45,376 nucleotides of DNA, taken from assembly GCA_944372355.1 (NCBI GenBank), contig CALVYS010000005.1:1-45376 (forward strand). The letters run 5' to 3'. The notes under the pieces were generated by a model. The model was not told where the DNA came from, searched no databases, and saw only the letters and a program-made list of their open reading frames with translations. The number at the start of each line of letters is the position of its first letter. The first letter of the stretch is position 1. Shown here in pieces: positions 9,267 to 44,900 of the stretch. Source of the DNA: an uncultured Clostridia bacterium (lineage in GTDB: Bacteria > Bacillota > Clostridia > Christensenellales > UBA1242). Position numbers and translations under genes: made by a program.

Positions 9267-9296
9267 TTGACTAATTTTGTAACATTTTGGTAAAAT
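9267..9296 (+). promoter_or_regulatory. Leaderless promoter of the poly-G surface-protein gene
   Basis: TTGACT (9267-9272), an 18-nt spacer and TAAAAT (9291-9296), then 6 nt to the GTG at 9303. It supports GTG 9303 as the true start, in the frame that encodes the signal sequence rather than the frame of the long open body. Confidence 0.72.
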
Positions 9297-9302
9297 AGAA
9301 CT

Positions 9303-11928
9303 GTGAAAAGGAAAACACAAACTTTTAAATTGTTTTTTGGTATGTTATTTGCATGTTGTGGGGCAGTGGCAGGGGGCGTTTTGTTCCCTCGGGGGGGGGG
9401 GCAATTTAGCGATTTACAATGCCGAGCCCACAGTCACCGAAAGAAATCAACTTGCAATCGACCTTGCAAATCAAGCGGTTTCTGATGTTGAATCGCAACT
9501 TGAAGAGCAAGCTTTAATATATCAGGAAGATGTGGCATTGAGGGTCTCGCTCAGCGAGGCTTATTCTTCCGACCTTGCGACATGGTGCACGGAAGGTGGT
9601 GTCGCACCATTAAACAGTGATTCCGACATTTCCGGGCAAGGCCTGCAAAACGACCCTTACTTAATCAAAACGGTGAGGGGTTGGGTTTGGTTTGTTTGTA
9701 AATCCACACACATCGTTGAAAGTCAGAGTTATGTTTATGCAAAGCTTGCGGCAGACTTGGATTTTGATGGCTATGTTTACGATTTGATCACAACCAATTT
9801 TCGCGGATTCTATGGCTCTCTTGATGGAGATGGCTTTGCATTAAAAAATCTTGCGATATCTTGTCCAGGCTTGTTTATGGGCCTTGGGAGTTTGTTGGAT
9901 TTGCAAACAATGGAATTGGCTTTGTATGAACAGCGCACCACTGAAATTTTAAATTTAAATGTAGAAACCATAATTTGTGAATATACAGGCACGCAGGACA
10001 CAGACATTCCTCCATTTGTTTTTGGTATGACAGCCTACAACACAAATTTTGAAAATGTTGAGGTCAAAACTTTTGCTCTTGGCGGGTTTAACGCTGTTGC
10101 AGGTTACACATTTGGTGGAATCAATGTTCAAAATTGCAATTTTGATATGAGTGCAGGCGGATCTTCCAGCCAATCGGTTTTGACAAGCGCATTTATGTAT
10201 GCACTAAGCGGCGAGGGGGTTTCGGCGTTTATGGGGTTGAATGTGACGCCGTTAAAAGACTTTACAAATTTTGAAAACTGCACTGTGAATGTGAGCAGCA
10301 TTTCAAAAAGCAGCATCGGCGACACGGCGTTTGGCTGTTTTGTTGGTGTTTTATGCGGAGGCTCGGCCGACCTTACAAATTGCACCACGCAAGGGCTTCA
10401 TTACGCTTTTGGCGGAATGGGCGGAGCTGGTTTTATTGGGAATGTGATTGACAGCAAAGTTAAGATTGCAAATTGTAAAAATTTTGCAACCATCGTCTCC
10501 TCGCGAAATCTGTCTGGGTTTGTGGCAAGCTTTCAGGTTGGACAACTTTCCACAGTGGGATCTCTTCTCGTGCAAAATTGCAAAAACTATGGTGATTTGT
10601 ATTGCATAGGTTCATCTGCTGAAAACATGGCAGCAGGTGGAATTGTGGGAAGGGTGGATCAAGAAAATGGTTCAGAAAGCCTTGTCACTGTTTCAAATTG
10701 CCAAAACTTTGGCTCAATTTATTCTGGTAATTGCCAGGGCGGCATAATTGGCAGACTTGCAGGCTCCGCCACGATATCTGACAGCGAAAATTATGGAGAT
10801 TTGAAGTTCGTGCTTGTAGAAATTAATCAGGCGGGCATATTGGAAATGGCAATGTTTGGGGCGGCAGCTGGCATTGTGACATCACCATTTTGGTCAAGTG
10901 CAACCACGTTTGTGCTCAACATAGAAAATTGCAACAATTTTGGAAATATAGAAACCAATCCAAGAACTTACGACTATGTTTACGAAACTTCAAACGGACA
11001 ATACCGCCATAGTGAAGGCACCGTTGCCGCAGGAATTTATGCTGGCACAAGCTCATATTTTGGACATGGCACTGGCACTGGTACAAATCCGTCAGGCATC
11101 GACGTTGTCAACATCACAGACAGCAAAAATTTTGGAGATATCAGCGCAAGTTGCAATTTTGTGGCGGGAATAATGTTTGAGTATGGCTATCAATGCACCG
11201 CACGTCTGCTTGAAAATTGTGGAAGTTTTGGCGACATTTTTGTCATCAGCAACAACAGTTATGTCAGCCCACTTGTCTTAACTCAGATGCTAGCACTTGG
11301 GAATGTTATCATTTCAAACTGTTATGTGGAAGCAAGTGCCATTTTGCAAGAACAGCAAGATTCAGATGGAGATATTGTCTCATCAGATAGTTCGTTGGTT
11401 GGCGCGCTCTTGCTCAATCCGCTGGCCGGTGGAATGAGAAACCTGGAAATTTCAAATGTGCAAATTTCTTTTTCTATCAACCTAGAAAATTTGACCGCGT
11501 TGTCAGCCGATGCAAATGTTTTGAACAATTCAGTAGGAGCCTCCACGCCAATTGATTTTGGCTATGTCGAGGGGCAAACTGTTGGGTCAGTGAGCAATGT
11601 TTTGGTGGATTTGAATTACATCTTTCCGGACTATTTTCAACCAGAAGAGAAAAACTATTCCAGGGAATGGACCGACATTTCAATAGGTCAAAGCATCTTG
11701 ATTGATGTGGAGTTTTGCAAAAATCAAACGCGTGAAGATGTTTGCAAAAACTATGTTCACACAAACGATCAGACCCAGCCTTTTTCAACAAGCGATTGGT
11801 TTTTTGATGAGAAACTCAACAATGGCATGCCAATGCTGAGAAGTTTCTATTTTCTTGCAAACAATCTGACCGATCAGCAAGACGTGCTTGCACGGCTTTT
11901 AGAACTAGGTTTCACACCACAAGCCTAG
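9303..11928 (+). CDS. GLUG-type repeat surface protein, frame-disrupted at a G11 tract
   Basis: Translation from GTG 9303 gives a basic start (MKRKTQTFK) and a hydrophobic export segment (LFFGMLFACCGAVAGG). The frame then enters an 11-G run and soon stops (at 9485). The long body (stop at 11928) is in the +1 frame. With one G fewer the two join into a protein of about 874 residues. The body has a start-of-module pattern GLQNDPYLI, then FYGSLDGDGFALKNL, then many beta-helix turns of the type NC-x-NFG-x-I with GGIVG/GGIIG, as in GLUG-repeat adhesins. Cysteines recur in the NC turns. A TTG at 9337 could start the body frame directly, but it would give no credible signal peptide. Phase variation or an assembly error would both explain this. 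Confidence 0.75.
9391..9401 (+). repeat. Homopolymer G11 tract, possible contingency switch
   Basis: Eleven consecutive G sit right after the export-segment codons of the surface-protein gene. The upstream frame reads CGG-GGG-GGG-GGG-CAA, while the body needs GGC-AAT after the tract. G10 (or G13) would be ON; G11 is OFF. No other G run of this length was noticed in the window. Confidence 0.85.
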
Positions 11929-12153: not shown

Positions 12154-13686
12154 ATGAAGTCTCTTGTCAAAACAGTTGTGCTTATTACTGGGTTTTCTGT
12201 GCTCACCAGAGTGGCGGGCTTTTTGTTTCGAATCTATCTTTCACGTGCAATAGGGGCGGAGGCTCTGGGACTTTATCAAGTGGCTTTTTCGGTTTTTACA
12301 GTGCTCATGACAATCATCAGCAGTGGACTGCCTTTTATCATATCTCGAATGAGCGCGTCTTATCGAATCGGTGGAGACAAAAAGCGCTCTGGCAAGCTTG
12401 TCAGCTCTGCATTGATTTTGGGGTTGGTGATAAGCTTGACAATTTGCGGTTTGGTTTTGCTTATGCGCAATGTTTTTGCCGGATTGTTCACCGATGAGGC
12501 CTGCATTTTGATTTTGATAGCACTGTTGCCAGCACTCGTCTTTTCAGCAGTTTACAGCGTTTTTCGTGGTGCGCTTTGGGGTCAGGACAACTATTTTGCC
12601 CTGTGCGTCAGCGAATTTTTTGAGCAAGTGGTGCGAATTTTTGTTTGTATCTTGCTGATTGCCCCGGCTGCAAGCGTCATCACAAAAGCGGTTGATGTGG
12701 CCTGGTCGCTGACAATAGCGTGTGGCCTTTCGGCTCTGTTCGTCGTTTTGCTGTATTTCATCTATGGCGGAAAAATGTCAAAGCCTGGGAGGGAATACAA
12801 GGAGCTTATTCGAAGGTCGGCACCAATCACAGGGGTCAGGGTGGCGGGCAGCCTTGCTCAACCTTTGATTGCACTCATCATTCCATTGCGTTTGACCGCG
12901 ATCGGCTATTCATCTTCGCAGGCGATGAGTTTGTTCGGCGTGGCGGTTGGAATGACGATGCCTCTTCTGTTTGTGCCAACAACCCTGATTGGTTCGCTTT
13001 CCACCGCTCTGGTTCCTGACATTTCCATGGCGGTTGCAAAAGATGATGCCGCGCACATAGCTTCGCGCGTTCGATCCTCGGTGGTTTTTACCCTTTTTGT
13101 TTCGGCCATGGTGGTGCCACTTTTTGCTGGCGCAGGTGAAATGATCGGTGAATTTTTGTTCGGAAACACTTTGAGTGGGGTGATTTTGGCCTCATCTGCT
13201 TGGATAATGATTCCAATGGGGATCACGAACATCACTTCATCTCTTCTCAACTCGTTGGGATATGAAATTCGCTCGTGTGTGAACTATTTTGTTGGAGCGA
13301 TTGTGATGTTTGTTGCCATGTGGTTTCTTCCAACCCTTTGCGGAATCAATGCACTATTTTGGGGAATGGGGCTTTGCATGTGCACAACGGCAGTGTTAAA
13401 CTTTTTTATGTTAAAGCGCAAAACCAAGGTGAAGTTGAAAATTTTGAAGCCGCTTTTGATTTTGATTGCAATCACGCTTCCTTGCGCAGCAATCACCTCG
13501 TTTGTTGGTGAGCTGTGTGCGATGATCTTGCCACAATTTTTGTCAATCATCATCTCTTGTGGAGTGGGAGGATTGTTCTATCTCTTGCTTTGCATGATTT
13601 TCAATGTGGTGGACGTGAAAGGCTATTTTGTGCAGGTTGCAAGCAAATTAAAGTTTAAAAAGAAAGAAAAAGTCGCAAAAGTTTGA
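12154..13686 (+). CDS. SpoVB/MurJ-like lipid-linked oligosaccharide flippase
   Basis: A 510-residue MOP-superfamily (polysaccharide biosynthesis / MviN-like) membrane protein with about 14 predicted membrane helices. The N-terminus TGFSVLTRVAGFLFRIYLSR and GAEALGLYQVAFSVF are characteristic of SpoVB-type members, which flip lipid-linked cell-wall precursors and in Bacillus are needed for spore cortex. The C-terminus is basic (KFKKKEKVAKV). A strong GTGGAGG site precedes the ATG, so it is leadered. Whether it serves the spore cortex (SpoVB) or vegetative wall (MurJ/YtgP role) cannot be decided from sequence; its neighbours include sporulation-type genes. Confidence 0.87.
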   Translation: MKSLVKTVVLITGFSVLTRVAGFLFRIYLSRAIGAEALGLYQVAFSVFTVLMTIISSGLPFIISRMSASYRIGGDKKRSGKLVSSALILGLVISLTICGLVLLMRNVFAGLFTDEACILILIALLPALVFSAVYSVFRGALWGQDNYFALCVSEFFEQVVRIFVCILLIAPAASVITKAVDVAWSLTIACGLSALFVVLLYFIYGGKMSKPGREYKELIRRSAPITGVRVAGSLAQPLIALIIPLRLTAIGYSSSQAMSLFGVAVGMTMPLLFVPTTLIGSLSTALVPDISMAVAKDDAAHIASRVRSSVVFTLFVSAMVVPLFAGAGEMIGEFLFGNTLSGVILASSAWIMIPMGITNITSSLLNSLGYEIRSCVNYFVGAIVMFVAMWFLPTLCGINALFWGMGLCMCTTAVLNFFMLKRKTKVKLKILKPLLILIAITLPCAAITSFVGELCAMILPQFLSIIISCGVGGLFYLLLCMIFNVVDVKGYFVQVASKLKFKKKEKVAKV

Positions 13687-26866: not shown

Positions 26867-26951
26867 TTTATATATCTAGATTTATTTTACTTTTTTGCGA
26901 CAAAATTTGATAAAAAGCGTTTATTTAAAAATAATAAAATGGGAGGCAAAT

Positions 26952-29900
26952 TTGAAGAAATATTTATTGGCAGTTTTAAGCGTTTTTCTTCTCGTGGGTG
27001 GCGTGTTTATTTCTGCATGCTCAAACAGTGCTCCACAAGCTGTAATCAACGTTTCTTCTTCTGACTTTGTTTCCGAAGATTACATCGAAATCGATTTAAA
27101 CTCTGACAGGCCTTATGCGCAAGTAACCGCAAGTGTTGAAAATGTTTCCTCAGGCAGGGTGAGCGCCAACAACAACTCAGAAAGCATATTGCAAGCAAGC
27201 GCTGCCTACAATTCAGACGCAAACAACACATTGATCACCATCACTGGTGTGAGTGAAGGATTGGGTTATGTTGAATTGCGCAGTGAGGAGGGCGATGGCA
27301 CAAGGCTTATCACGGTTTATGTTTACAGCGACATATTGGGCATGAGCCAGAAGGCCGATGAAGTTGGCCAAGCCAGCGACCAATATGTTGTCAGAAGTCA
27401 GCAGGGTGAAAACCTTGTCAACATTTTGGATTCTGAAAGATATCTGACCTTTCTTTCACGTGAAAATGGTGAAAGCAATCGAAAAGATGTGACATGGGCA
27501 TTTTCACAAAACCAGCAAAACAATTTGACCGGATTGATTTTGGAAGCAAACAGCCTTGTGGTTCAAAACGGCTACATTGGTGACACGGTTGAATTGGTGG
27601 CAAGCTCGGTTTACACAGATTACTCTGCAACCGTTCAGCTGCATGTGCTCTCTCAACTTTCAGAGCCAACTTTGCAGTTTAGCAGAAGTGCAAACTCCAA
27701 CTTTGGCGACTACAACTCATCGTTTGAAACCCTGGTAAAAAATGACCAGTCAAAAGCAGAATCCGCTCTTTATGTCAGCCTTTCGGTTGAAGCTTCTGAG
27801 GACATCGAGGTTTTGCCTGTTGTGCTTGACAGGTTTGGAAACAATGTGACAAATGCACTCACCATCAGGCGCATCAATGAAAGCTCGTCAGGTGGATTGA
27901 TTCAACGAACCTATGTCGTTGAAGCGGCAAGTGCAGGGTTGGATCCTCAAACATTGACGGTTTACTTTGAAGTTTCTTATCAAGACTACAATTACACTCA
28001 AAACAGCCAGCAGTTCCAAGTTTCCTTGGTCGACGTGGTGGATTCCATCAACATCACAACAGATGGACAAACCGTGACCAATGGCGACACATTTGATGTT
28101 TACAACAACTACAACAACACCGATGGCTCCGGCAACTATGGCAGGCCTTTCGTTGTTAACCTTGGCCCTGACACTGTGGCAAATGATCAAGCAACCTTTG
28201 CAATCAGAATGCGAGAAAATCCAAACGGCAGATTTTTGATATATGTTTCAAATTCAAACAGCAGCTATTACATTCAAGAAAATTTCACACCAGTGCTGAT
28301 TGATGGAATCACTTACTATCAAAGCCAGCCGATCGCCAATGGTTCAGTGGTGTATTTCAGAGCATCTGGAACCTTTGGAAGTGGTGATGAAACCGATGTT
28401 GCATTCTATTCAACTCAATCTGAAAATGTGGCCTTAAATTTCAAATTGCGCAGCTATTTTGCTCCAAGTGCCAATTTTAATTTCAGCAACAATGTCACTT
28501 TGGATTATCACATCTCAACACAAACTTTAAATTCTGTCACAATCTCTTTCACACTTGATGAAGTGCAGCTTGCAGACATTGCCTCTGGGTTATACTTGGA
28601 TCCGACAGATGGAGCAGGCAATCCAAACACCGATTTTGAAGTCAGTGAACTGACAATTGTTGGAGAAACCGGCACTTTCACTGTGTCAAACCTTGAAACC
28701 AACTTGACAGGTTCATCACTCACAATCGCTTTGAGGCACAGAAATGGCTTCTATGCTACGGCAAATTTCACTGTTCAGGCTTTTGTGCCTTTGTCAGATG
28801 CCGTGCTCAGCTATCAAGGCAACAGCACCAACGCGGTGGCTGCGTCGGGAAACGCTTATCAAACGAGTGGAGGCATTGAGTCGTTCACATTGAACAGGCT
28901 TGTGATGACCTCTACAAATTCTTTGGTGTTGAACGTTCGCACCAACACAAATGCAACATTGAGCAGCCCTTACGCTTTTGCGTTTTACAAAACAGACGAA
29001 GAGCTTGACGGTTCGATTCTTGATCAGCTTCAAGAAAGCATGCGTGACAATGCTTCCGTAACATTTGATGCGACAACGGGCAGAATGACGGTGAACAATG
29101 ATGTCAAAGGGTATGTGGTTTTCACCTTTGATGGCTTTGATCAAAAACACAATCAAATCACCGTGCAAAGATGGTTTTATTTGGAAGGCTTCACATCGCC
29201 AACCAGTCTGAGGCCAAACCCTCAAAGCCTTTCTCTCATTGCAAGAGATTCGATTTCCACGCAAGATGCATCACTGGCGCAGGGATCGGTGAGAGTGACA
29301 TTCAGAACCGATGGAAATGCAATCACTTACTATGACGAGAGCAATTTTAGTTTCACTTCCTCCACAGGGGCAAGCGTAAATTTGCTGGAAAAAGGCTATA
29401 ATTATCAAATAACAAAAATCAGCACAACAGATCAGGTTTTGAGCTTTGACGTCGTTGCAAACACCACAAATGGGTTCAAAACTTTTGTCGATACGCTGGT
29501 TGTGGAATACACTGTTTTTGGAAGAACTTATTACGCTACAATTGAAATCAACATAACAAATGCCACAAGAGTTGAGCAGGTTGTTTGGGAAAATCAAACC
29601 TCAGATGGTGAAATTTACATAGATCTTTATGCAACAAACTCCACAGACAGGCAGTTCACAATCATAACCTCAACCTTGCCTTTAAGTGCATATAACGACG
29701 AATTGACTTACATCTTTGTTCCAGACAGTGGCACAAGCGCGAACCTTGTTTCCATCAACGAGCTTGGCATTGTCACTCCAAATTCGCAAACAGTGGGTGG
29801 AACAGGAACCATCTTTGTGCTGCCTAGCGATGCCATAAGGGTTGTCGGCGGCGTGGCTCAAATCGTTTATCTTTCAGAAGTTGATGGAGAGGTTACATCA

Positions 29901-32900
29901 AATTCAGTCCCTCTTTCAGAGCTTTCCAATCGCTATGATGAAATCATAAACGGCTACTTTGTTTCAGACAGAACAGCCGAAGATGTTACTAATGTTTATT
30001 ATAGAGATATTATTCTTAGAATAAGATTAACTGTTGCAGATGGCAGAAGCGAAGAGACTGCAACAAGGATTTATAATGCCGCTCAGTTTGCAGAAATAGA
30101 TCCAAACATGCACTACATTCTCATGTCCTCAATCGAACTTGCAGATTGGGAGTCTTTTGGCGCGCCACTTACAGGATCACTGAAAGGCTATGACAACAAC
30201 ATTTCAATAAGTTTAACGGGCCAGCCAATTTTCAATCAAATTGCCTCAACTGGAAAATTTGAAAACTTCACTTTGTCTGGCGAAGTCAATGGCGGAGGCT
30301 TTGTTGCAAATCTCAACCAAGGGTCAATCAAAAATGTGACCATCACCGTGCAGTCATCTACTTCTTCACCAAGTTTGCTCAACGGCGGATATGAATTTGA
30401 TGGAAATCTTTATGCAGGTGCAATCGTCGGAATCAACGAGGGAAGCATAGGTGCAGAAGATGGCGAAGTCAGAATCGAAGGTGTGACAGTAGACATTGCA
30501 ACCGGCGACGACCTTTCTTATGCCGGTATGTTTGCCGGAAGCAACTCAGGAGCGATCTCTTACACTTACGGCGAATTCTATATTTTTGATCAAACAGAAA
30601 GTGGAGACGATGTCATCAACACCATCACAGCTGCATATGTTGGAGGCTTTGTTGGCAGCCTCACTGGCGGATCAATCACTCACAGCTATGTGTTTAACTA
30701 CACTTTTGATGGAAACGGCACATTCACTGCCAATGCATTGAATGCCGAAGTATATAGTGGGGCTTTTGCAGGGGCTTACAGTTCAGGCGAGATTTCAAAC
30801 TCTTTTGCAATGGTCCAAGATAATATTAATTCAGGAATACTAACAAACATTTCAAATTCTTACTGGGGTGTAAGCGACGACACAGGTGACACCAACTCAG
30901 AGTATTGGATCGATGCTGGCGAAGAAGGCTTTAATTCATATGTAAGAAACGGCCAGCCTCATCTTCGTTTCTATCAGTCAGAGGCGCTGCTGGATTTAAG
31001 CGTGATAGCAGTTCAAACCACTTCAAAATTTTTGCCAGTCAATAATGGAGAAGAGGGTATCTTGTTCTTGCACAGGGTGCAAAACAGTTTGGGCATGTCG
31101 GATTCAGCTTCCACAGCGCTGACGCAGCTCAACACCATCTCTTTTGTTGAATTGTTTGGCAACGCAAGCATCGTGGCAACCTCGCTCAACAACAACATTG
31201 CAGAGGTTGTTGGCAACAACGTCCTCATCAAAGAAACCGGCGATTTGACATTGCAAATCACAGGCAAACAAGACTACACTCAAAGCAGAGAAATCAACTT
31301 TAAAGTCGTTTATGTGGTGGAAGATTTCCAGGCAACCTATGGCGGCATTCAATCCACAGGTTTTGACTTGCAGGAAGGCCAAACCGCAAACATCATCTTC
31401 AAAATCAAAAACAGCGTCTATCTTGCAAACGAAACCCAGCCGAGAACGCTGCGTTTGGAAGAAATGAGCCTGACAAACGAGGTTGGCATAGAAGACGACA
31501 ATGGCGAGACTATCAACTTCGATAGTGAGTTTGTCAACTACACTGTCAACGGCATGGTTGGAACGGTGAGCTTTGGGCTTGGTTTGACTGATGAACTTGA
31601 AAACAGAACAAGCGTTATATTGACTTCAAAAATAAATCTGACCGATTTTGCAGATAACGATGCCTACCAAACGGCAATTGAGCAGGCTTTCTCGCAAAGC
31701 TTGACCGTGAGACCTTTCCAAGGTGCAAATGAGATTTTGACAAATGTTGACAGCATGACTATAAACCCTTCTGTCACATCAAAAATCACCGTTGTGCTTG
31801 CCACAGATTCGAGTGCAGACAGCATCAGTTTGCAACTGTTGAGAAATGGCTCTCCGCTCACTTTTGGCGGAGCAAACAACGGCCAAACATCATTTGTTTA
31901 CAGTGACGATGGCACCAGCGCAAGCATCTTCTATTCGCAGGCGATTTTAGATATGTCGATTTCAAGGTCAGCCTATGATGAAACCACACAAACTTACACC
32001 TATGAAATCACATTTAAGGTGGCGGAAGATTATCGCTCACAGATTGCGGCCAACGAGGATTACACTTTGGTGATTAGCTCGGTTTCTGGCACAGCAAGAA
32101 ATGAGGGCAGAGAAGTTGACATCACTTTGACAAGACAAGACATCAACTACATCGACATTGCAAACTATGAAGCTTCAAATGTTTCCAACATCAATGGAAA
32201 CATTGTCTACACTTACCAAACCAATCAAGTTTCGGTGCTTTCACCAGGACGCAGCTCATTTATGGTTGTAAATGTGGATCCAAGTTTTGCTTATTACAAC
32301 TATATGACTCTCACTTACAGCGCAGTCGACACAACAACCAATCAGCCATCTTCTTCAATCTTGACCATGGCAAAATTGAACGAGTTTTCGGGCGGCGGCG
32401 TCAACAACGGCTATGTTGTGGATTATTCATCAAATGTTTCAAATGATGTCATCAATGGTTTGAGGGTGAACAGAGATGACTCTGGCATCTATGTTTTCAG
32501 ACTGTATCCATCTCCAAACATTGGATCCGACACAACTTTTGTCATCACAGCAGCCTTCTACGATGCAAACGGCAATCAAATTGCACAGTCGGTTTACGAA
32601 TTGTTTGTTTCCTATCTGCCACAGGCTGAAATTTTGGTTGACGGTCAAAACTCCACAATTCTCGCCAAAGGCGGCACGGCAGAACTTTCCATCTTGTTGC
32701 AGCAGGGGCAAGAACTCGACTATTTGACGGCCACGGGAGCAACAGGTGTGACCATCTCTCCAAAAGAGGCTTGGCAGGTTGAAGAATTGAGCAATGGAAC
32801 CGTGCTTTACACAGCTCAGCTTCGTGCATCGCTGAATGCTTCTGTCAACGGCACAAATGGAACCTTTGAGGTTACTGCACAAGTTTCAAGATATCTCAAT

Positions 32901-35900
32901 GGTGAGACCGACCGCAAAACCTCCACGGCATATGTCACACTTGTGAACTTCAAACCAACCTCAGCAAGCTTGGAGGGAGCTACTTACAACTCATCAAACA
33001 ACACCTATATGTTTGACACTTATGTTGGCATCACAAATGGACTGACTTTTGATTACAGTTTCAATCCAGAGAGCTATGCTTATGACGCTTCAAATCAAGA
33101 CGAGGTCGAGCTTGCAAACAGTCTGTATGAAGCAAGAGAGCAGTTTATTCAAGCAGGTTATTATCAAGACGACGAAACCGGCTTTTCAATCAATTATTAT
33201 AACGGCAACGCCATTCCAATTTATCAGAGATTGGAAATGAATGGCACGCGTCTCAATTTCACGCAGTCTGGCGATGGCGTTTATACTTATTCAAACACAA
33301 GGTTCAGATTGACCTACACCGAAGAGCGCAATGATGACAACGAAATCACGAGTGCGTATCTCACCGTGACAGGATTGACAACAACAGCTTCGCCTGTTTA
33401 TCTGACCCTTGTTGACGAAATCAGATTGGACAGCGACGGCTCAGATGTGCTTTATGAAATAGAAACCAACTTTGCAATCTCAGTTGGAATTTATTCGGAT
33501 CAAGACAGGGCGTTGCCTATTCGCACAGCAGAAGAATTTTTGAGCGTGGCAGATGAAGGACAGGCAGCGGATTACATCTTGCTAAGCGACATCACCTTGA
33601 CAAACTACACTCCAATTTCTTCTTCAAACTTCCGCTCTCTTGATGGAAACGGCTACACAATCAACATTGAAAGCTTCAATCTTGAAGGGTCTGGAACGCT
33701 GAATTTGGCACTCTTCACAACGATTTCAGCAGATTCTGTCATCAAAAACGTTAGAGTCAATTATTATCAAAGCCAGCCTATAACCATTGATGTAACCTCA
33801 ACTGGCTATTCAAACATCAACATCGCGGGCTTGGCGATCACAAACAACGGAACGGTGACAAACACCCAAGTTGTTGCTTACAAAACGGCATCGACAAGCT
33901 TTACAAATTCTGGTGACATAGGAATCATCGTGAATTATGTTCGCGGTTCAACACCGGTTTACATCGATGCAAATTCCTCCATCAGCAGCCAGGTTGCAGG
34001 TTTTGTCATCACCAACTCAGGCTCCATCACCAACTCAAAAGTGGGAGGAGAGGAGATTATCATCATAGGCGAGCAGGTGGCAGACAGCGACAGATTTGAA
34101 TACACCACCGAATCGCTTTCCACCTTCACAATTTCGGCGCAGGGCACTGTGTCTGGGTTTGTCATCACCAACTCAGGCGACATTGCGTCAAGCAGCGCAT
34201 CACAGGTTCAAATAACAAACCTTGCTTCTTCCAACCAAACTCAAACCGCAGGCTTTGTCATCACCAACTCCGGTGACATTCGCGCCTCGGCAGTGCAAGG
34301 CGTCAAGAGGCAGGGCACGGGCAATGATGCTGACACCTATCATCGCACTGGCAGCAACATATCAGCAAACGGCACGGTTTCTGGATTTGCCATTCGCAAC
34401 ACCACAACAGGTGTGATCAGTGATGGCTACTCCAATATTCTCATCTCCGACAGATCCACTCAAAACAGTTTGACAAGTGCCGGATTCATCTATCAAAATG
34501 AGGGCTACATTGAAACCTCTTATGCAGCTTCGTATGTTGAAAAAGCCAACATTCGTCAACTCAGCTTCTCAGGTGTGGATTCCACCGGTCACTCGTTGAA
34601 CACCGGAACCATTGAGCTTTCTTACTACTATATCGCCGATTACGATGATGACACGGCAAGCGATGTGGAAGGCACTTTGGATTCTGCAAACCTTATAAGC
34701 AGAGAAGAGGTTGAAAATCAAAACGCCTACTATGGCTTCATCTTCAATTCAACCTCCTCAGCAGGTGACGGAATTTGGACGTTGATTGAAGGCGAGGGCG
34801 TGGAACCGGTTTCGCTTTCAACCTTGACAATCTCTCACAGATATTATGTTGCCGGGCAAGATGGAGAATACTTCCTTCCATATTCAATTCTGACAAACTC
34901 TGGCAACTCTTTCGCGCCGGATTACGACACAACATATGGCGAAGACATCAACCCAATTTTGATCACTTCGGCACAGGATTTCCAAGAGGCGATGGGTGCT
35001 TCAACCTCCACCTCAGTTGGCGGACAGTTCAATGACACAGAAATTTTTGGTTCCTATCGATTCGCTGCCGATATCGATCTTTCAGAGCTGAACAACGACA
35101 TTGGAAATGCCGAAGTTGGTTCGGTTGACAGAATTTTCAGCGGCCAAATTGACGGAAATGGCTTTACAATCAACAACATATCTCTTTCCAGCAGCAACAA
35201 CGCAGTTGGTCTGTTTGCAGAAACTCGAAATGCTTTGATTCAAAATCTCAACATTGAAATCAACTCGATCACTGCCGGCAACTCGGTTGTGGTTGGCGGG
35301 CTCGTTGGCGTGGCAAAAGATTCCAGAATCATCAACATTCAAATGAGCCAACGCACCACCACTTCGGGAGATTCCGAGGAGCGTGGCGTGCACGGCCGCA
35401 ATGTCACCGGAGGCATCGTGGGCGCGGCCTTTGGTCAAAGCGTGCTGGTGGGCCTTTCAGCCACAGACGCCATCGTTCAAAGCGGTTATTACAACAATTC
35501 AACAGCAAACAATTTTAATCAGGCAATCTACTCACGAGGCGATTGGTCCTTCAACGCGCAAGCAGTGCGAACTTACGCGGAGGCAAATTCGTCGCAGCTT
35601 TATGCGGCCGACGGCCTTGGTCAAACCTCGTTTGCAGGTGGGCTTGTGGGTTATCTAGACATTTACACAGCTTCACAAGTTTTGCAATCCAACTATATTT
35701 ATGTCACAAATCTCAGCAACTCTGATTACAGCGTAAGCAATTTCAGGGTCAACAATTCAATTGACGTGCGTGCAGAAATCGTGGGCGGTTTGATAGGCTA
35801 CACCGGTCCTCAAACCAGAGTGCAAGATGCTGGAATTTACTTCACAAATCAAGCCAACACCTATGCCAACCTGCTTTCTTACAACTTTGCAGCAGGCGGC

Positions 35901-38900
35901 CTTGTTGGCCTTGCAAACGGCGATTTCTATCAAGTTTTTGCACAATATGAGCAAACCTTGCAAGATGAAATTGAAAGCAGCACCAGCCAGTATTATGGCG
36001 GAGCTTCAACCACCGAGCGTGGCTTGACCGACATATTTGAAGGCACGGCAAGTGAAGTTGGCGCTCAAAGCTATCAACCAAAGTTTGTTGGTGGTCTGTT
36101 CGGCGTGATTGGCACGGGCAGGGTTTACATTGCTTACAGCAAAATCAATGCAATCAATCCTCAAAATGGCGGCTATGCAGGTGGCATTGCCGGAGGGGTT
36201 TATAATGCCTCCGAATTCTTGATAGACGATCCTGCATCAAGCAGCAGTCAAGCAACGATTGCAACCACACTTTTGCTCAATGAAGTTTACGCTTCTGGCG
36301 ATGTTTATGCCGAAGGTGTCTTCAACAATGTTGCAACGCATTTCGGCGGGCTGTTTGGCAGATTCCTGAACGTTGGCAGCACCAATGTCAAACTTTCAAT
36401 GGCCGCAGTCAATGCAGTCAACGAATATGGCATCTTGGGTGAGGGTTATTATTCCGAATCCAACCCAACTGGAATTAATCAGATAAACGCCTTAGTGGGA
36501 ACGATGGACGCCGGCGCTTCTGTGTTTGTCTATGCAGTTTCTGCAAGCGGACAAAATTTGCCAGATGTGTCCGACATCAAATCGTATGGCTACATGAGCT
36601 CCTACACCTCTGGCTCTGTCACCGTCAACGTGAAGAGCGGCGTATATAAAGAAACTGAGTCAAGTGGAGATGAAGAAACTGGGTCAGATGATGGAAGCAG
36701 CCCTAATGAAGTAGATGCTGACTATGTGTTCAGAATCGAGTCAGTCAGCTCGTTCACCTCGCCAGAAGATGGCTTCACTGACACAAACGGAGCCTTCATC
36801 AATTCAAACGCTTGGAGCAGCGACAACTGGATTCATGAAACCACCAAGCTCTATCCAGACATCAACCTTGTCAACACCATTTCTTACATTTATCTTGATC
36901 AAGATAATGTTGACAGCGTGGTGGCAAGAATGCAAAATTCGTCCATCGAAGTTCGTGTGCGCGGCAAAAGAGTAGACGAAAATGGCAATGTCTCATATGG
37001 ATATGTGGATTTGAGAGATTACACAATTGAAAACTTCACTGGCCGTTTGGTTGGTGCGGTTGACAACAGCTGGTTTGTAAACTCCAATTTCGGAGCATAT
37101 ACAAATGGCGATGAGAATTCTACGGACATCTTCAGCAACAACTATCCAGGTATAATCTTGAATGGCACATTGTTTGAAACCCCGCTCTCAGGTGCAACTT
37201 TCCAAAATTTGAACATAGTTTTTGACTCAGAACCAGAAGGAGCATCTATTGGCAGCTCGTTTATTTCAGGAACAAACTTGCAGGATCTCACATTCTCTGA
37301 TATAAACGCTTGGTTTGTTGATGGAGTAAGCATCACTGCCGAAGAAAGCGGCGGCAACGCCTATGGCGGCTTGTTTGTTTCCTCTGCAACCAACACAAGT
37401 TTCAGAAACATCTTGTTGCAATTCTCTGCAACTAACACTGATAGCGGTAATATAGTCAAATTCACAACCAGTACCAACAATAATAATGATGAGGTTCAAT
37501 ATACTGATGCTGCTTTTGGCTTGCTGGCAGGTCAGCTTGTGCAGGGCTCGCCATTTGACGCATTGCGTGTTCAAAACATTACAATCAAACACAAAGAAAT
37601 AGACAATCTTGATGCCGACCATGCATTGATGAGGGTTGAAATTGGAAATAATGTTGCAAACCTCTATGCAGGCTTGTATGTTGGAAACATTAGAAACTCA
37701 GAGGGAGGACAATATGCAGGAGTCAACATCACAGCCAGAGCACCTCAATCGGCAAATGATGATTATAGTGAAGATACCTTTACATCAGCTTTGAGCCTTG
37801 GTGGCGGATTCAGCGTGACAGGCACGGCTTATATTGGCGGATTTGTTGGTCAAATATCCACATCAAACACGGCCTTCACATTCATAAAGGATCAAACTTA
37901 TCAGCAAAGCATAAACATCTATGCCGATTTCGCGGCTGCGGATATGAACATTGGTGGACTTTTTGGTGATGCCACTCTGACAAGTTTTTCAACAGACATA
38001 ACGGTGGAAGGCACACAGCAATTATTTGATTCGAACATTCGCCTGACGAAAAACATTGGAACTGATAACGGAAATGACAAAAAAGGAAATCTTAATGCTG
38101 GTCTGCTTGCGGGTAGTATCTCCTCTGGGGCGAACATAAGCCTTAATCCTACTTCACGCTACACGATTTCTGGCTCCATCAGTGCGGCCATTACATCAAG
38201 CACGACTGAAACTGACACCACAGGAATAAGCGGCAACGCACATTTGGGCGGCTTGGTTGGACGCAATAATGCCAACATCACTGTCACAAACCTTGATCTT
38301 TCCTTTGAAATTTATGGAACAGGCAATGACGAAAGTGCAGATGAAAATGCCTTTGAGTTGACAAACGATGCAATGGGAAAAGCCTTCCAAGCAAACGCAA
38401 TCGATGCTGGTGGCCTTGTTGGAACCAATGCTGGCGATCTGATCATTGGCGAAGAGCAAGAGGTGGGCCCAGGCACTGGTGTCAGCGTAAATGCAGATCG
38501 AGAAAACCTCAGGCTTCAAGCCACTGGTGGAGAGCTCAATGCTGGCGGTCTTGTTGGAAATATGACCGGAGGCAGCGCCACAATTCAGGCTTTAAGCGAC
38601 AATGCTTCAATAATTTGGGCTCTTGGCAACACAAGTGGAACAACAAATGTTGGCGGCATAATCGGCGATGTGACAAGCGGCGTTTCTGAATTGAGCATCA
38701 GTAAGGCACAAAGTGATGTCAACTTCTTTGTAAGCGCAAAAGATGTCAACGCAGGTGGAATCATAGGCCATTTAAATTCAGCTGCAACAATCGACAGCAC
38801 TGAAATCGACAGCACTGAATTTTCTGGCTCCTTCAAGGTGTTTGGCGGCACAAGCAATTCCGGCGATCATAAGATGGGCGGTGTTGTTGGATATGTCGGT

Positions 38901-41900
38901 GAGGGGTCTCAAATCGATATAATTTCAAACAAAACCTATGGTGATGTAATTTACACCTACGGCTCTGACTTCACGGGATTAGGTAGTTATCACTTTGGCG
39001 GCGTTGTTGGTGACGTGGATTCAGGTTCGGTATCACTTGGTGCAAACATTGTGGCGTTCACAAACAACAATCAAGCGCGCGCAAGTGGAACGCATTTCGC
39101 TGATGCAATGGTGGGGAATGGTGGCTTTACTCAGTATACAGGAATTTCGGATATCACCAACTATTATTCTTCGCAGCTTGTTTTGGCAACCAGCGACAAC
39201 GCTGTGGATTTGAACTACAACATAGAAAAAGGCACAACACCAGTCACAGGTTATTCTCCAAATGGTGAAAATTATCAGGCTCTAGCTCAATCCATCATTA
39301 CAAAGCTTTTTGGCAAAGATGTTTATGGCGACAGTGGCACAAAATTCAACCCTGTAACAGATGGCACAACAGCCGTTACCACTGAGGGTGAGGTAAAAAC
39401 AGTCAACACCACTCATGGCATTCAGTATTACACAACCAAATATCCAAACTACATTCAAGGCACCACTGAGTCAACCACTGAGACAACCACAACCTCGCCA
39501 AATGCCTACGCCTTTATCGGTGATTGGGTTCAGCAAACATCGGCACTTGAAACGCTTTCACAACACAGCTTCGTCTCCGGCGTTTACACCAATCTTGACA
39601 TTCAAGACGCAAATAATACGACTCGTTATGGCAAAAACAGCGGCGGAATTGTCAACACAATGACTGGCGGCATAATCTATGCCAGCCTATCCTCTGGCAC
39701 GCTTTCAGTGGGTGGAGGTGAAGATAAACAAATAAACCTTGGTGGCATCGTTGGCCTCATGACAGGCGGCTACATCAACGAATGCTCTTCCTCACTTGAA
39801 ATCGTCTATCGCGCAGCAACAGGTGGCACAGCTTCTGGCATTGCAACGTCGTTAGAAACAGACAACACAACAAACACACCGCTCAACAGAATTTACATCA
39901 ACAACACTTATTCAACTGGCACAATCACCTCTTACATTGATGCCAACCTCTTTTCCTTCACAAATGGCACAGCAGCGGGCACAGGCACCGATGGAAGAAC
40001 CCATTTCTACATTACAAACAGCTACACAATCTCTCGCGTAAATTGGAATGATTACACAAGTGATAAAACATCACATGCTAATACTATATATTTGGGCGTT
40101 ACTGGTTCTGCGCAAACAAATACTTTTGCCTATGATCCTAACGCTTTAGGAGATGCTTATAATAAAGAAAATAAAAGCACAGAAGCAATAGATAATTCCG
40201 ACGACTCACAAGATACAAATAAATGGATTTATCCAGCGTCATTTAATTCTAACGATTCAGGCTCTGTTCCAGGGGGTGGTATTCTGATTGGGACAGACAA
40301 AGGTTGGTCGAAAACTAACACGATCAACTATGGCTATCCTGTGCGCAACTTTGCACAATTCAAAGATTTTACAACTCAAACAACAATTGGCACCATAATT
40401 TATCAACAAATCCCAAATGTCACCAAGTTTGTTCAAGCATCTGACACAGACAAAAACTACATTCTCACAAACGACATTGATTTCAACGAAACGACTTATG
40501 CTGATTCTTGGACCAGCCTTATCTTTACAAACGTCGCATACTTCGATGGTGACGGGCACACGATCAGCAACCTTACGGCTAGGACATTGATTGACACGGT
40601 TCAAAACATTTCCAACCTCCGCGTGACAGATGCTGCGCTGAACGCCCAAGCAGTGGTTGCCCTTCATGTCACAGGAAACGCAACCAATGTGATCGCAACA
40701 GGAACGTTGAATGGCTCAGGCTCCAATGTTGGAGGGCTGTTCGCACAAGCAGAAGGGGAAATAGAAAATTGTAAAAACTATGTGGCAATATTAAGTTGTT
40801 CAACCCCAGGAGCGCGTGTTGGAGGAATTGTAGGGTATTCAACCGCTTCAATTTCCAACTCGTTCAACTATTCTCCAATTGATGCGAATGTAACAGGTGG
40901 TTATGTCGGAGGTATTGTGGGTTATTTATATGGATCCACCGGAAATGAAATTACTGATTGTGGCAATGAAAACACGGTGTTTAATGGTTACACCACTACA
41001 ACCAATAATGGCGACTATTATGCTGCCGGCATTGCAGGTTATTCAAATGTCAACATTTCCAACTGCTACAACACCTCGATGGTCAAAGCTGGCAACAAGG
41101 GCATCAATGCGGATGGATCTGGTGCAGCCTATGCCGCAGGTATAGTGGCAACAGCAAATAATAATATTTCAGTTTCCTCCTGCACAAACACCGGCTTCAT
41201 TGAGGCACTTGGAAGCAACACACCAAATACTAAAACAGCGTTCAGTTTTGGGGAAGATATATACTCAGACGGAAGCGAAGATGAAAATGAAAACAAACAA
41301 TTAACCGGCACGACAAAAAATGACGAATATTTTACTACAACGGAATACATTTCATACTTAATAAATTGCAATAATATAATAAACGTTCAGGTCGATCCTA
41401 TTGGAATTGACATGAGTAGTCAAAGTGACAACTTAAACGAAGGCTCGATTTACAAAAACGGAGCATTTGGCTCTCGGTCAGGAAGTGTGTTGGTGACAAT
41501 CCCAACCTACGAACCTGGCTGGAATGGTTCAAGCGTGAACATATCAGTTAATGATATAACAATTTCATTAACTTCTGCTCCAACAGCAGTTGTCGCAGAA
41601 ACCGATGAACTTGGTGCAATGACCAAATTCTATGTCAAGACCCAAAGAACGATTAATTATGCGTGGTCAGTTCAAAGATATCAACAACGATATTGGGAAG
41701 TTGTTGATATTAACCAAAATGGAAACCAACAAGTAGATTTTAGTCAAAATAAATATTATGCGCAACGAGCAAAAATGGGAACCTCTTATAATGGAGGTGG
41801 CGCAAGCATTAACACAAATCAAGGTTCAGGGGAATACGAACTAGTATCAATTAATGGAGCTAAATATTATTTTGTAGACAGTGCTTCTGCATTTATGACG

Positions 41901-44900
41901 GTGGTTCAGGCGGGCATTTCAACAGCCACGACAACATATAGTGGAACAATTGGTGAAAAGTCCATTGCAGCTTTGCAAGCCGCAGGTTACACTTTCTCTA
42001 TAACACCAACGACTGATCCTGAGAACTCAAATGTATCTGTTTCGTATTATTATCAAGATGAGAAGTTGTTTATCTCTTTCACAACACAAGATACGGGTGA
42101 TCCAGGTGTAACAATCACTGGTTATACAATTTTAGCAAATAAAGCTGATGAAACAGAAAGTTTCTCACTTTCAAGCAGTAATATAAAATTTGAAAAAGGT
42201 ACTATTACGATATATACAGATTTTGATGCAGATGTTCTGGCAAATTTACAAAATGGAAAAACATACAATGTTTCAGCTGGCAATGCAACATATAAATTCG
42301 TTTGGAATCAAGAAGAGGAAATATTAACATTCTCTGGTACCACTAAAAGTGATTACAATAATATTCTCGGAAGAGGTGTTGTGACCTTAACATTTCTTGA
42401 TGAGAACTCAATTCTTGAACAAACTGTTTCAACAGAGATAGGCCTGACTCCAACCAACATTGAGACATCTTATGATGGAAGCACAACAGAAACAATAAGG
42501 CATGTGAGAAGTATAGACTTTGTGATGTTTCGGGATGTTGTGGGAGATGAGACCGAAACGTTCACATTGTCAGGAAGCAATGATGTTCAGTTCTCAAATG
42601 ATGAAATAACGATTTATACAAACTTTAACTCAAACATAACTTCATCACTCATTAATGGCTGGGAGTATAATGTCAAGATAGATAATACAACTTACGAATT
42701 TATGTGGAATTCAACAAGCCAAACCTTAACAATGGCTGGTGATGAGGAGACATTTAACAAGATTAGAAATTCTAGCGCGACATTATATTATCTCAAATAT
42801 GTTGACAACGAAAACGAATTGATCATTTATGACGATGATTCGTTAACACTGACTCAAACTGTCACAGTCCAAGGCAGGGCAACAAGATTTTCTTTTGGCA
42901 ATTATGTTTATGAAATACCTGAATCAGGAGAAACTGACAATACTTTGGATTTGACTCCAAACGGTGGAACGAATGTGATGAACTTTAAAACGCGCTATGA
43001 TGGACAAATGACCATCTTAACAGTTGAAGCCGAAAGCTCTGATGGTATGTTGTCTGTTGCATTTTTAGGCGGGCGATATAAGTTCGAATTTGCAGATCCA
43101 ACTGGCGACAGCACGATGTTTGCAGAAACAAAAACAGTTGAAGACGTGGAGACATTCTCGGGAGATTTTGTAACGGCAACTTACACAAGATCAAATGAAG
43201 AAGGAGCATTTTCAAGCGTCGGCAAAACTTTGTATTTGGGAGAAGATACACTTGCGGGTCAGCAAGCCATAGTTGAGGTGTATGACTACACACAAACCTA
43301 TGATCTGTCACAAATCGAAATCGCCGTTCAAGAAGGCGAAGCAAGAGAATATCTTGCGGTATACAACACAACCGAAGAAACACAGAAAGTGAACAGTGGC
43401 GATGAAATCCGAACGATAACCTTTAACAATTTAAATGGAGCAAATATTTTATTAGTTTTAAAGAAGAGAAACGTTAACCTTTCTTTGGAGGCTTCAGAAG
43501 AGTTTATACAAGAGGGCTCTCTTAGTTTGACATTAAAAACTCAAGATGTTATTTTAACTGCAGAGGATGCGAACACTATAATAGGTGCATATAACACTGA
43601 TGAAACGCAGGCTACTTTCACCATAAACTCACAAGTATACTCTGTGCTGTTCGATGAAGATGGTAATATCACAAATATTTTAAACAGCAGTGGCATAGAA
43701 TCCGGTAATATAAATGATTATTACATAACAATCGATGGAATGAATTTTATGTTTATCAGTAATGATGATTCTGCTCCAATGCTGGTTGAATGTTTGGTCG
43801 GTTCTAATGGAACTGTTAATATTGAAAGCTTAAATATTTCATATGAAGCTAACACAGCAGAAAATGCAGAGCAGCCTTTTGTTTTCAAAGATGGAGACTC
43901 AATTATACCTATCACTCCTGCGACAGAAGATAGAGAGGCCTATATAACCATTAATGGAACAAATTATACATTCCAGCCTATCACAACTGTTATTGAAAAT
44001 ATTACTGATTACACGCAGGGTACTGATGAAGATGGAAATGTTGTTTTGGACATCATATATTCAATCGATAGTCTTAACGCTCCAAATGCCTATATTGAAG
44101 CAACCTTTGATCAATTATCCACCGGAACTCAAAATATAAGTATCGCTTACAATACCTACACTTTGGATTTTTCTACAACTGGATTAAAAAACATAACGTT
44201 TGTAGATGCAGAAAGTGAAGAGACCTCGAGTACAAATACAACATTTGGCCCAATATTTAATGGTGATTTAAGTGTGATAGGAAGTTATACTGCGACCGCT
44301 ACATATGATGATTACCAAGAGAAGAACATACCATTTGATAATCCTACTGATGATTCAGATGATGATCCTGAAACGGAAACTGTTGACCCTGCACCTATCG
44401 TGGTAACAGCTGATATCGATTTGGGAAATATTAATAGTGCTTTGCCTACAAAAGTTGCAATGATCACAAGCACAAATTCAAACATTGTAACTTTCCGCAC
44501 TCAAACAGCTACAGGTTTATTGGATCAGCAATCGTCAGGTAATTCAGAACAACCGGAATATAGCCCACTTATGATGAAAAATATCGCTTTTGCCGGTTCA
44601 GTGAAGATGGAGAATGGGAACAACTCATATGGTTTGATCGCCGCCAGTCTAAACAGCACCACGGCAATTAATGTTTCAACTTATGGGACGATTTACAATC
44701 TTGGTGCTGCAGGTGCGACAGGTGGAGGCGTGGCAGGGAGCTTTACTGGAATATTAAACAACGTGAAGTCTTTCACTTCCTTCTCACACGACACAAGCAA
44801 CACCTCTCGTGAAGACAGCGATTTCACCGGCTCGATGGCGGGAATTGCTTGGAAGATTACTCCTGAAAGCACTGAAAGCACTGAAAAGATTAGAGTTTTC

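Follow-up and report, generated by a model that had tools for sequence, protein, structure and literature searches.

A poly-G tract between the export segment and the body of a Clostridia gene as a candidate phase-variation locus

The tract gene and its genomic site

The window analysed here, a stretch of 45,376 nt, corresponds to contig 5 of an assembly (G000) of 874,025 bases in 32 contigs, which is 98% complete. The features of interest are collected in Table 1. The promoter and its 6-nt spacing to GTG 9303, which the first-pass annotation had pointed out, were recovered by reading the sequence as well as by a scan, and the basic and hydrophobic, export-type character given to the segment behind the GTG holds over 30 codons, with a best 15-residue hydropathy mean of 2.18. 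The 11-G run is likewise present. It begins 95 nt past the -10 element, i.e. downstream of the promoter, and the frame from the GTG stops only after passing it, so that two frames are separated by a long homopolymer near the 5' end of the coding region. The start codon lies only 6 nt after the -10 element, which suggests that the message of this gene is probably leaderless.

Table 1. Features of the tract gene in the window
Feature	Position	Strand	Basis
Promoter: -35 TTGACT (9267-9272), 18-nt spacer, -10 TAAAAT (9291-9296)	9267..9296	+	sequence reading and scan
GTG start and basic/hydrophobic segment, likely export signal	9303..9390	+	start 6 nt past -10
G11 tract, proposed slippage site	9391..9401	+	sequence, run statistics
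60-codon frame through the tract as assembled (OFF product)	9303..9485	+	frame reading
Body, 841 codons and stop, as assembled in another frame than the export segment	9403..11928	+	frame reading

The body had been described as a GLUG-repeat protein read in another frame. The frame break and the open codons behind it stand; the repeat label, however, is not supported at the cut-off, as the single GLUG (PF07581) stretch of the body scores 12.9 bits and thus falls below the Pfam value of 20.5. A Pfam search of the body returned no family at E 0.01, and its structure, predicted for the body alone, has a mean pLDDT of 32.7, too low to be informative. The translation, read to its C-terminal end (...DVLARLLELGFTPQA), shows no LPxTG-type sorting signal, i.e. 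not the end that would be expected of a sortase-dependent pilus switch. Homologues of the body occur in 23 others of the 112 genus genomes, the best relative being found in G071 (33%, E 2.6e-32).

The neighbouring gene at 12154-13686, which we take to be MurJ-like, served as the anchor for a synteny comparison with 11 lineage relatives (L102-L112), and no tract of G8 or longer was found in the fetched stretches, that of L103 covering only 363 bases upstream. In L102 the MurJ-like neighbour is 84% identical, and the flanking genes adjoin each other with no tract gene between them. At this site L104 has a different ORF of 1590 codons, which has an export-type start, carries no tract and shows a weak partial similarity to the window body (E about 1e-4 to 4e-5). 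Since the tract gene is absent in the first relative and another ORF stands in the second, it is, on this comparison, accessory. Those relatives that have names are metagenome-derived, uncultured Clostridia or Firmicutes.

At the end of the window an open frame of at least 6160 codons (26895-45374, + strand) runs off the contig. Reading of the sequence gives it a lipoprotein-like start from TTG 26953; two pieces of the frame matched no Pfam family at E 0.001, and the genome search placed one GLUG stretch above the cut-off in it.

Recurrence of the tract in leaders of putatively exported proteins

The G11 run of the window is not a product of chance, because the longest other G or C run of the window is 5, the longest run in 200 Markov-1 simulated windows is at most 10, and the runs of the whole assembly are outliers of the same kind. 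Only four G runs of at least 7 exist in the assembly, with lengths of 11 (window), 10, 13 and 12 and none of 7 to 9, so that searches for runs of at least 7 and of at least 9 give the same four places; the composition of the window would lead one to expect about 22-27 runs of at least 7 and about 0.25 of at least 10.

The three sister tracts (C6:37231, C11:19094 and C30:54) belong to genes built like that of the window. All four genes have the -35 element TTGACT, an 18-nt spacer, the -10 element TAAAAT or TAAACT and a start codon 6 nt past it. The three sisters share a common leader, with AACAAAATGTCACCTC 5' of the tract and CAACAGTTT or CGACAGTTT 3' of it, and these nearly identical flanks enclose 10, 12 and 13 Gs, the 10-G copy having an additional A before the run. 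In C6 and C11 the tract is followed by long bodies with a hydrophobic segment 3' of the tract and with GLUG stretches above the Pfam cut-off, and the C30 gene is interrupted by the contig end. As assembled, the window gene, C6 and C11 are all out of register (0 in, 3 out). Other GLUG-bearing frames of the assembly, e.g. on C23 and C10, have no tract, since the assembly holds only the four runs.

The comparison of tract length and frame across related genomes, which the first-pass annotation had proposed as a check, favours a switch: the lengths differ and the registers are mixed. In G023, G071 and G077 and, less clearly, in G076, genes with an export or membrane segment likewise carry a G tract near the 5' end of their coding region. 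In G023, where 14 of 14 tracts were fetched, 13 lie in a common leader with G10 (5), G11 (6) or G12 (2), and an identical 22-nt segment, ATGCAACATTTTGTTACCCACC, precedes 10, 11 and 12 Gs. Twelve of these 13 leaders are followed by an open body of at least 391 codons and the remaining one meets a contig end; the one body tested carries DUF6273. Five of the 12 scorable G023 genes are in register and seven out.

The order of elements in G071 is the same in the best homologue of the window body and in a second gene: -10, 6 nt, ATG, export-type segment, GTCAC(C/A)TC, G9, CAGTTTTA, body. The tract of the homologues thus stands at the equivalent place after the export segment, between GTTTTGT..C-Gn-CA flanks like those of the window. 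Both G9 genes have the body out of register and a third gene, with G10, has it in register (1 in, 2 out). In G077, from which 26 of 28 tracts were fetched, two families have the tract straight after a signal-type segment; eight G9 copies are out of register and one G13 copy is in (1 of 9).

Pooled over the four species (G000, G023, G071 and G077), 7 of 27 genes are in register and 20 out, with starts that were assigned by hand (for L146 and L116, further ATGs occur in different frames), and this share is near the expectation from random lengths. The count leaves out C30 of G000 and L153 of G023, which lie at contig ends, L121 of G023, which lacks a leader, L174 of G077, where a stop precedes the tract, the two G076 tracts, whose start is ambiguous or whose body is short, and four of the seven G071 tracts (sequence not fetched). 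Three genes of three other species (L016, L034 and L142; 1 in, 2 out) stand outside the 27. In-register versions of the design thus exist in other species only, with 0 of 3 in the window's own assembly, and the variation seen is variation between paralogues, as each species is represented by one genome and each tract by one consensus length.

The 6-nt spacing between the -10 element and the start codon holds in four of four genes of G000, three of three of G071 and four of four of one G077 family; it is absent from two genes of the other G077 family and from the two G023 genes checked. A leader-motif search of the 112 genus genomes, with a pattern unable to match the G023 form, gave six places in three genomes (G000, G071 and G076) and none with the reversed pattern, and a scan of viral contigs for the motif gave no match. 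A search pattern of 14 Gs was dropped as too strict; it also matched G-rich contig ends, which are probably artefacts.

Three further observations concern long G runs in these genomes. All 14 G9+ tracts of G023 lie on the minus strand of their contigs, although contig orientation should be arbitrary. In G075 (L159, L160 and L161) tracts of 9, 10 and 12 Gs precede similar short frames (HNRSEE or HNRSKE), which form a further family whose tracts differ in length. In L125, L173, L025 and L023 runs of G9-G10 lie, by reading of the sequence, in frame inside apparently ordinary enzyme or sigma-factor genes, where slippage would break the gene.

A candidate slippage switch and its alternatives

The window locus is very probably a translational phase-variation (contingency) locus, in which replication slippage on the G run would set the frame between export segment and body. 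The proposal of a phase-variable switch, made from the window alone, thereby gains support from the recurrence of the design, from the differing lengths and from the mixed registers in sister genes and relatives. In the proposed mechanism the replication machinery would slip on the run and leave cells of one population with different run lengths. Lengths that join the export segment and the body in one frame would give an exported protein, and the remaining lengths a short peptide that terminates soon after the tract. We infer from the comparative pattern that run lengths probably do differ between cells of one population, a difference that was not itself observed at 9391-9401, and the best explanation of the frame break is, with high likelihood, that the assembly records the OFF state of the gene. 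The product would most likely be a secreted or surface protein, and its intermittent display could help against host, phage or neighbours.

Some facts count against a switch, namely that all three scorable tracts of the assembly are OFF, that the eight OFF copies of G077 all have the length 9 and that the bodies of two of the nine G077 copies scored are short (58 and 93 codons). Additionally, the C6, C11 and G023 genes have a membrane segment 3' of the tract, so that an internal start might still yield a membrane protein there. Whether slippage is due to lost mismatch repair was considered, and this cause was rejected for MutL: the protein is present in the assembly, as it is above the cut-off in 109 of the 112 genus genomes, and slippage would therefore not be helped by its loss.

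Three other explanations were weighed, and the comparative evidence speaks against each, though for this single locus against none firmly. One would argue that the true tract length differs from the assembled one through an assembly or sequencing error, in which case the gene would be intact and constitutive and the G run would encode glycines. Long G runs are hard to count, the assembly gives a single consensus, and runs of G9 do occur in frame within ordinary genes of some relatives. However, the assembly is devoid of G runs of 7 to 9, which makes the four long ones extreme outliers, and homologous tracts elsewhere are also mixed in register, a pattern that a local error cannot yield. A miscount at the window locus alone is possible; as an account of the frame break, error is nevertheless unlikely.

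Still less probable is slippage by RNA polymerase or the ribosome, which long homopolymers can cause. It would give every cell a fixed share of full-length product with the DNA unchanged, and it would explain why bodies stay open despite being out of register. Against it, the DNA length itself differs among near-identical leaders, and relatives have tracts in promoter spacers, which lie upstream of the transcript and so beyond the reach of either process.

The least credible of the three is gene decay, with the frame break as a step toward permanent loss: three of three scorable copies in the assembly are out of register, L102 has no such gene and further stops occur in two of the nine G077 copies scored, yet the window body keeps 841 open codons, out-of-register copies in relatives keep 300-500 open codons at a dN/dS near 0.25, and in-register copies exist in G023, G071 and G077. 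The dN/dS values come from pairs that have 60 or more codons and a pS below 0.7, and dS is near saturation in most of them; the out-of-register G077 copies gave 0.23-0.32 in nine of nine pairs passing this filter, G023 pairs gave 0.22 to 0.86, and the in-register L176 of G077 had no passing pair.

Most documented cases of slippage-driven phase variation come from cultured pathogens. For the genes described here, the best explanation is a switch of this known kind, in which slippage would control the translation of exported proteins, in a lineage for which we found no such report. The closest precedent appears to be the sortase-dependent pilus clusters of Bifidobacterium breve, for which an intragenic G-tract switch with measured length mixtures is described (PMC9187656). 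There, too, a gut bacterium has a G10/G11 tract within the reading frame of a surface gene (a probable one in the window), the tract length decides, as it would here, whether two frames are joined, and the reference is out of register (PMC9187656). In contrast to the window, the B. breve report concerns an actinomycetote and pilus clusters, with mixtures measured in a population, whereas the window body has no LPxTG at its end and the lengths given here are consensus lengths (PMC9187656). The contingency genes of Campylobacter jejuni resemble the present set in having long G/C tracts in frames with on/off switching; the phylum is another one, and 29 polyG/C loci are reported for strain NCTC11168 against four tracts here (PMC4965091). 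A general homopolymer study had Clostridia in its sample (PMC2831843), and in passages of a 2025 review Clostridia are represented only by C. difficile, with switches by recombination or related regulation (PMC11868660). None of the matches listed from the open-licence literature deals with this lineage or with G-tract switching in Clostridia. Should poly-G slippage indeed switch surface proteins in these lineages, shifting surface coats would be displayed by many uncultured bacteria, and metagenome annotation would label switchable genes as broken.

Promoter-spacer tracts in the wider lineage

At least one G9 run is present in 51 of 61 genus genomes. When one tract per genome was taken from 29 of these 51, 12 lay wholly within a promoter spacer (reversed sequence 0 of 29). 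A gapped promoter pattern matched in 63 of the 112 genus genomes, 383 times in all (a total in which nested ends on the reverse strand count more than once), and its reversed form matched 4 times. Across the order the pattern occurs in 83 of 297 genomes, the table giving no match for the reversed form; in a sample of the phylum it occurs in 30 of 398 genomes, where its 39 matches are only about fourfold over the 10 of the reversed form. Among 164 tracts examined, 83 are promoter tracts, in a set whose loci were partly chosen by the promoter pattern (the pattern-free set being the 12 of 29), and 72 of these 83 have spacers of 15-17.

The genome G066 has tracts of G8 (2), G9 (13), G10 (1) and G11 (1) at 17 of 17 fetched promoter places. 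At 13 of these an ORF longer than 400 codons follows, and several of the ORFs begin with a hydrophobic stretch. Five promoter flanks occur with more than one tract length: three vary within one genome and two groups mix genomes, one of the latter having both lengths within G028 and within G095. Contrastingly, 18 of 18 fetched promoter tracts of G032 are exactly G8, in near-identical and apparently dispersed promoters, as counted with a pattern blind to G7 or less. The promoter tracts are, to judge from these counts, a real feature of the lineage, and only part of them looks variable.

The relatives' runs within the -35/-10 spacer have the anatomy described for Neisseria porA and fetA (PMC5320596). 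The window differs from that type, with its tract outside the spacer and 0 matches to the promoter-spacer pattern in its own assembly. We would give even chances to the wider reading that the order runs a large slippage switching system of promoter-spacer tracts together with tracts just behind the start or export signal of paralogous exported proteins, of which the window genome would have a minimal set of four. The spacer tracts would then change the -35/-10 distance, and some small genomes would hold dozens of independently switching genes.

The promoter-spacer runs also show some peculiarities of their own. The genome of G032 has about twenty near-identical promoters at scattered places (L208-L225), of the form TTGACAAAAAATGC-G8-TAAAAT or TAGAAT, and such promoters are found in G088 too; some of those in G032 have no long ORF close behind and are possibly a mobile promoter element. 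The spacer tracts of G068 (L117, L122, L127, L132 and L137) are poly-C on the strand of the gene in four of five distinct tracts checked. At the level of the order, promoter-spacer poly-G is absent from many families and frequent in f15, f20 and f32, where it reaches up to 20 matches per genome.
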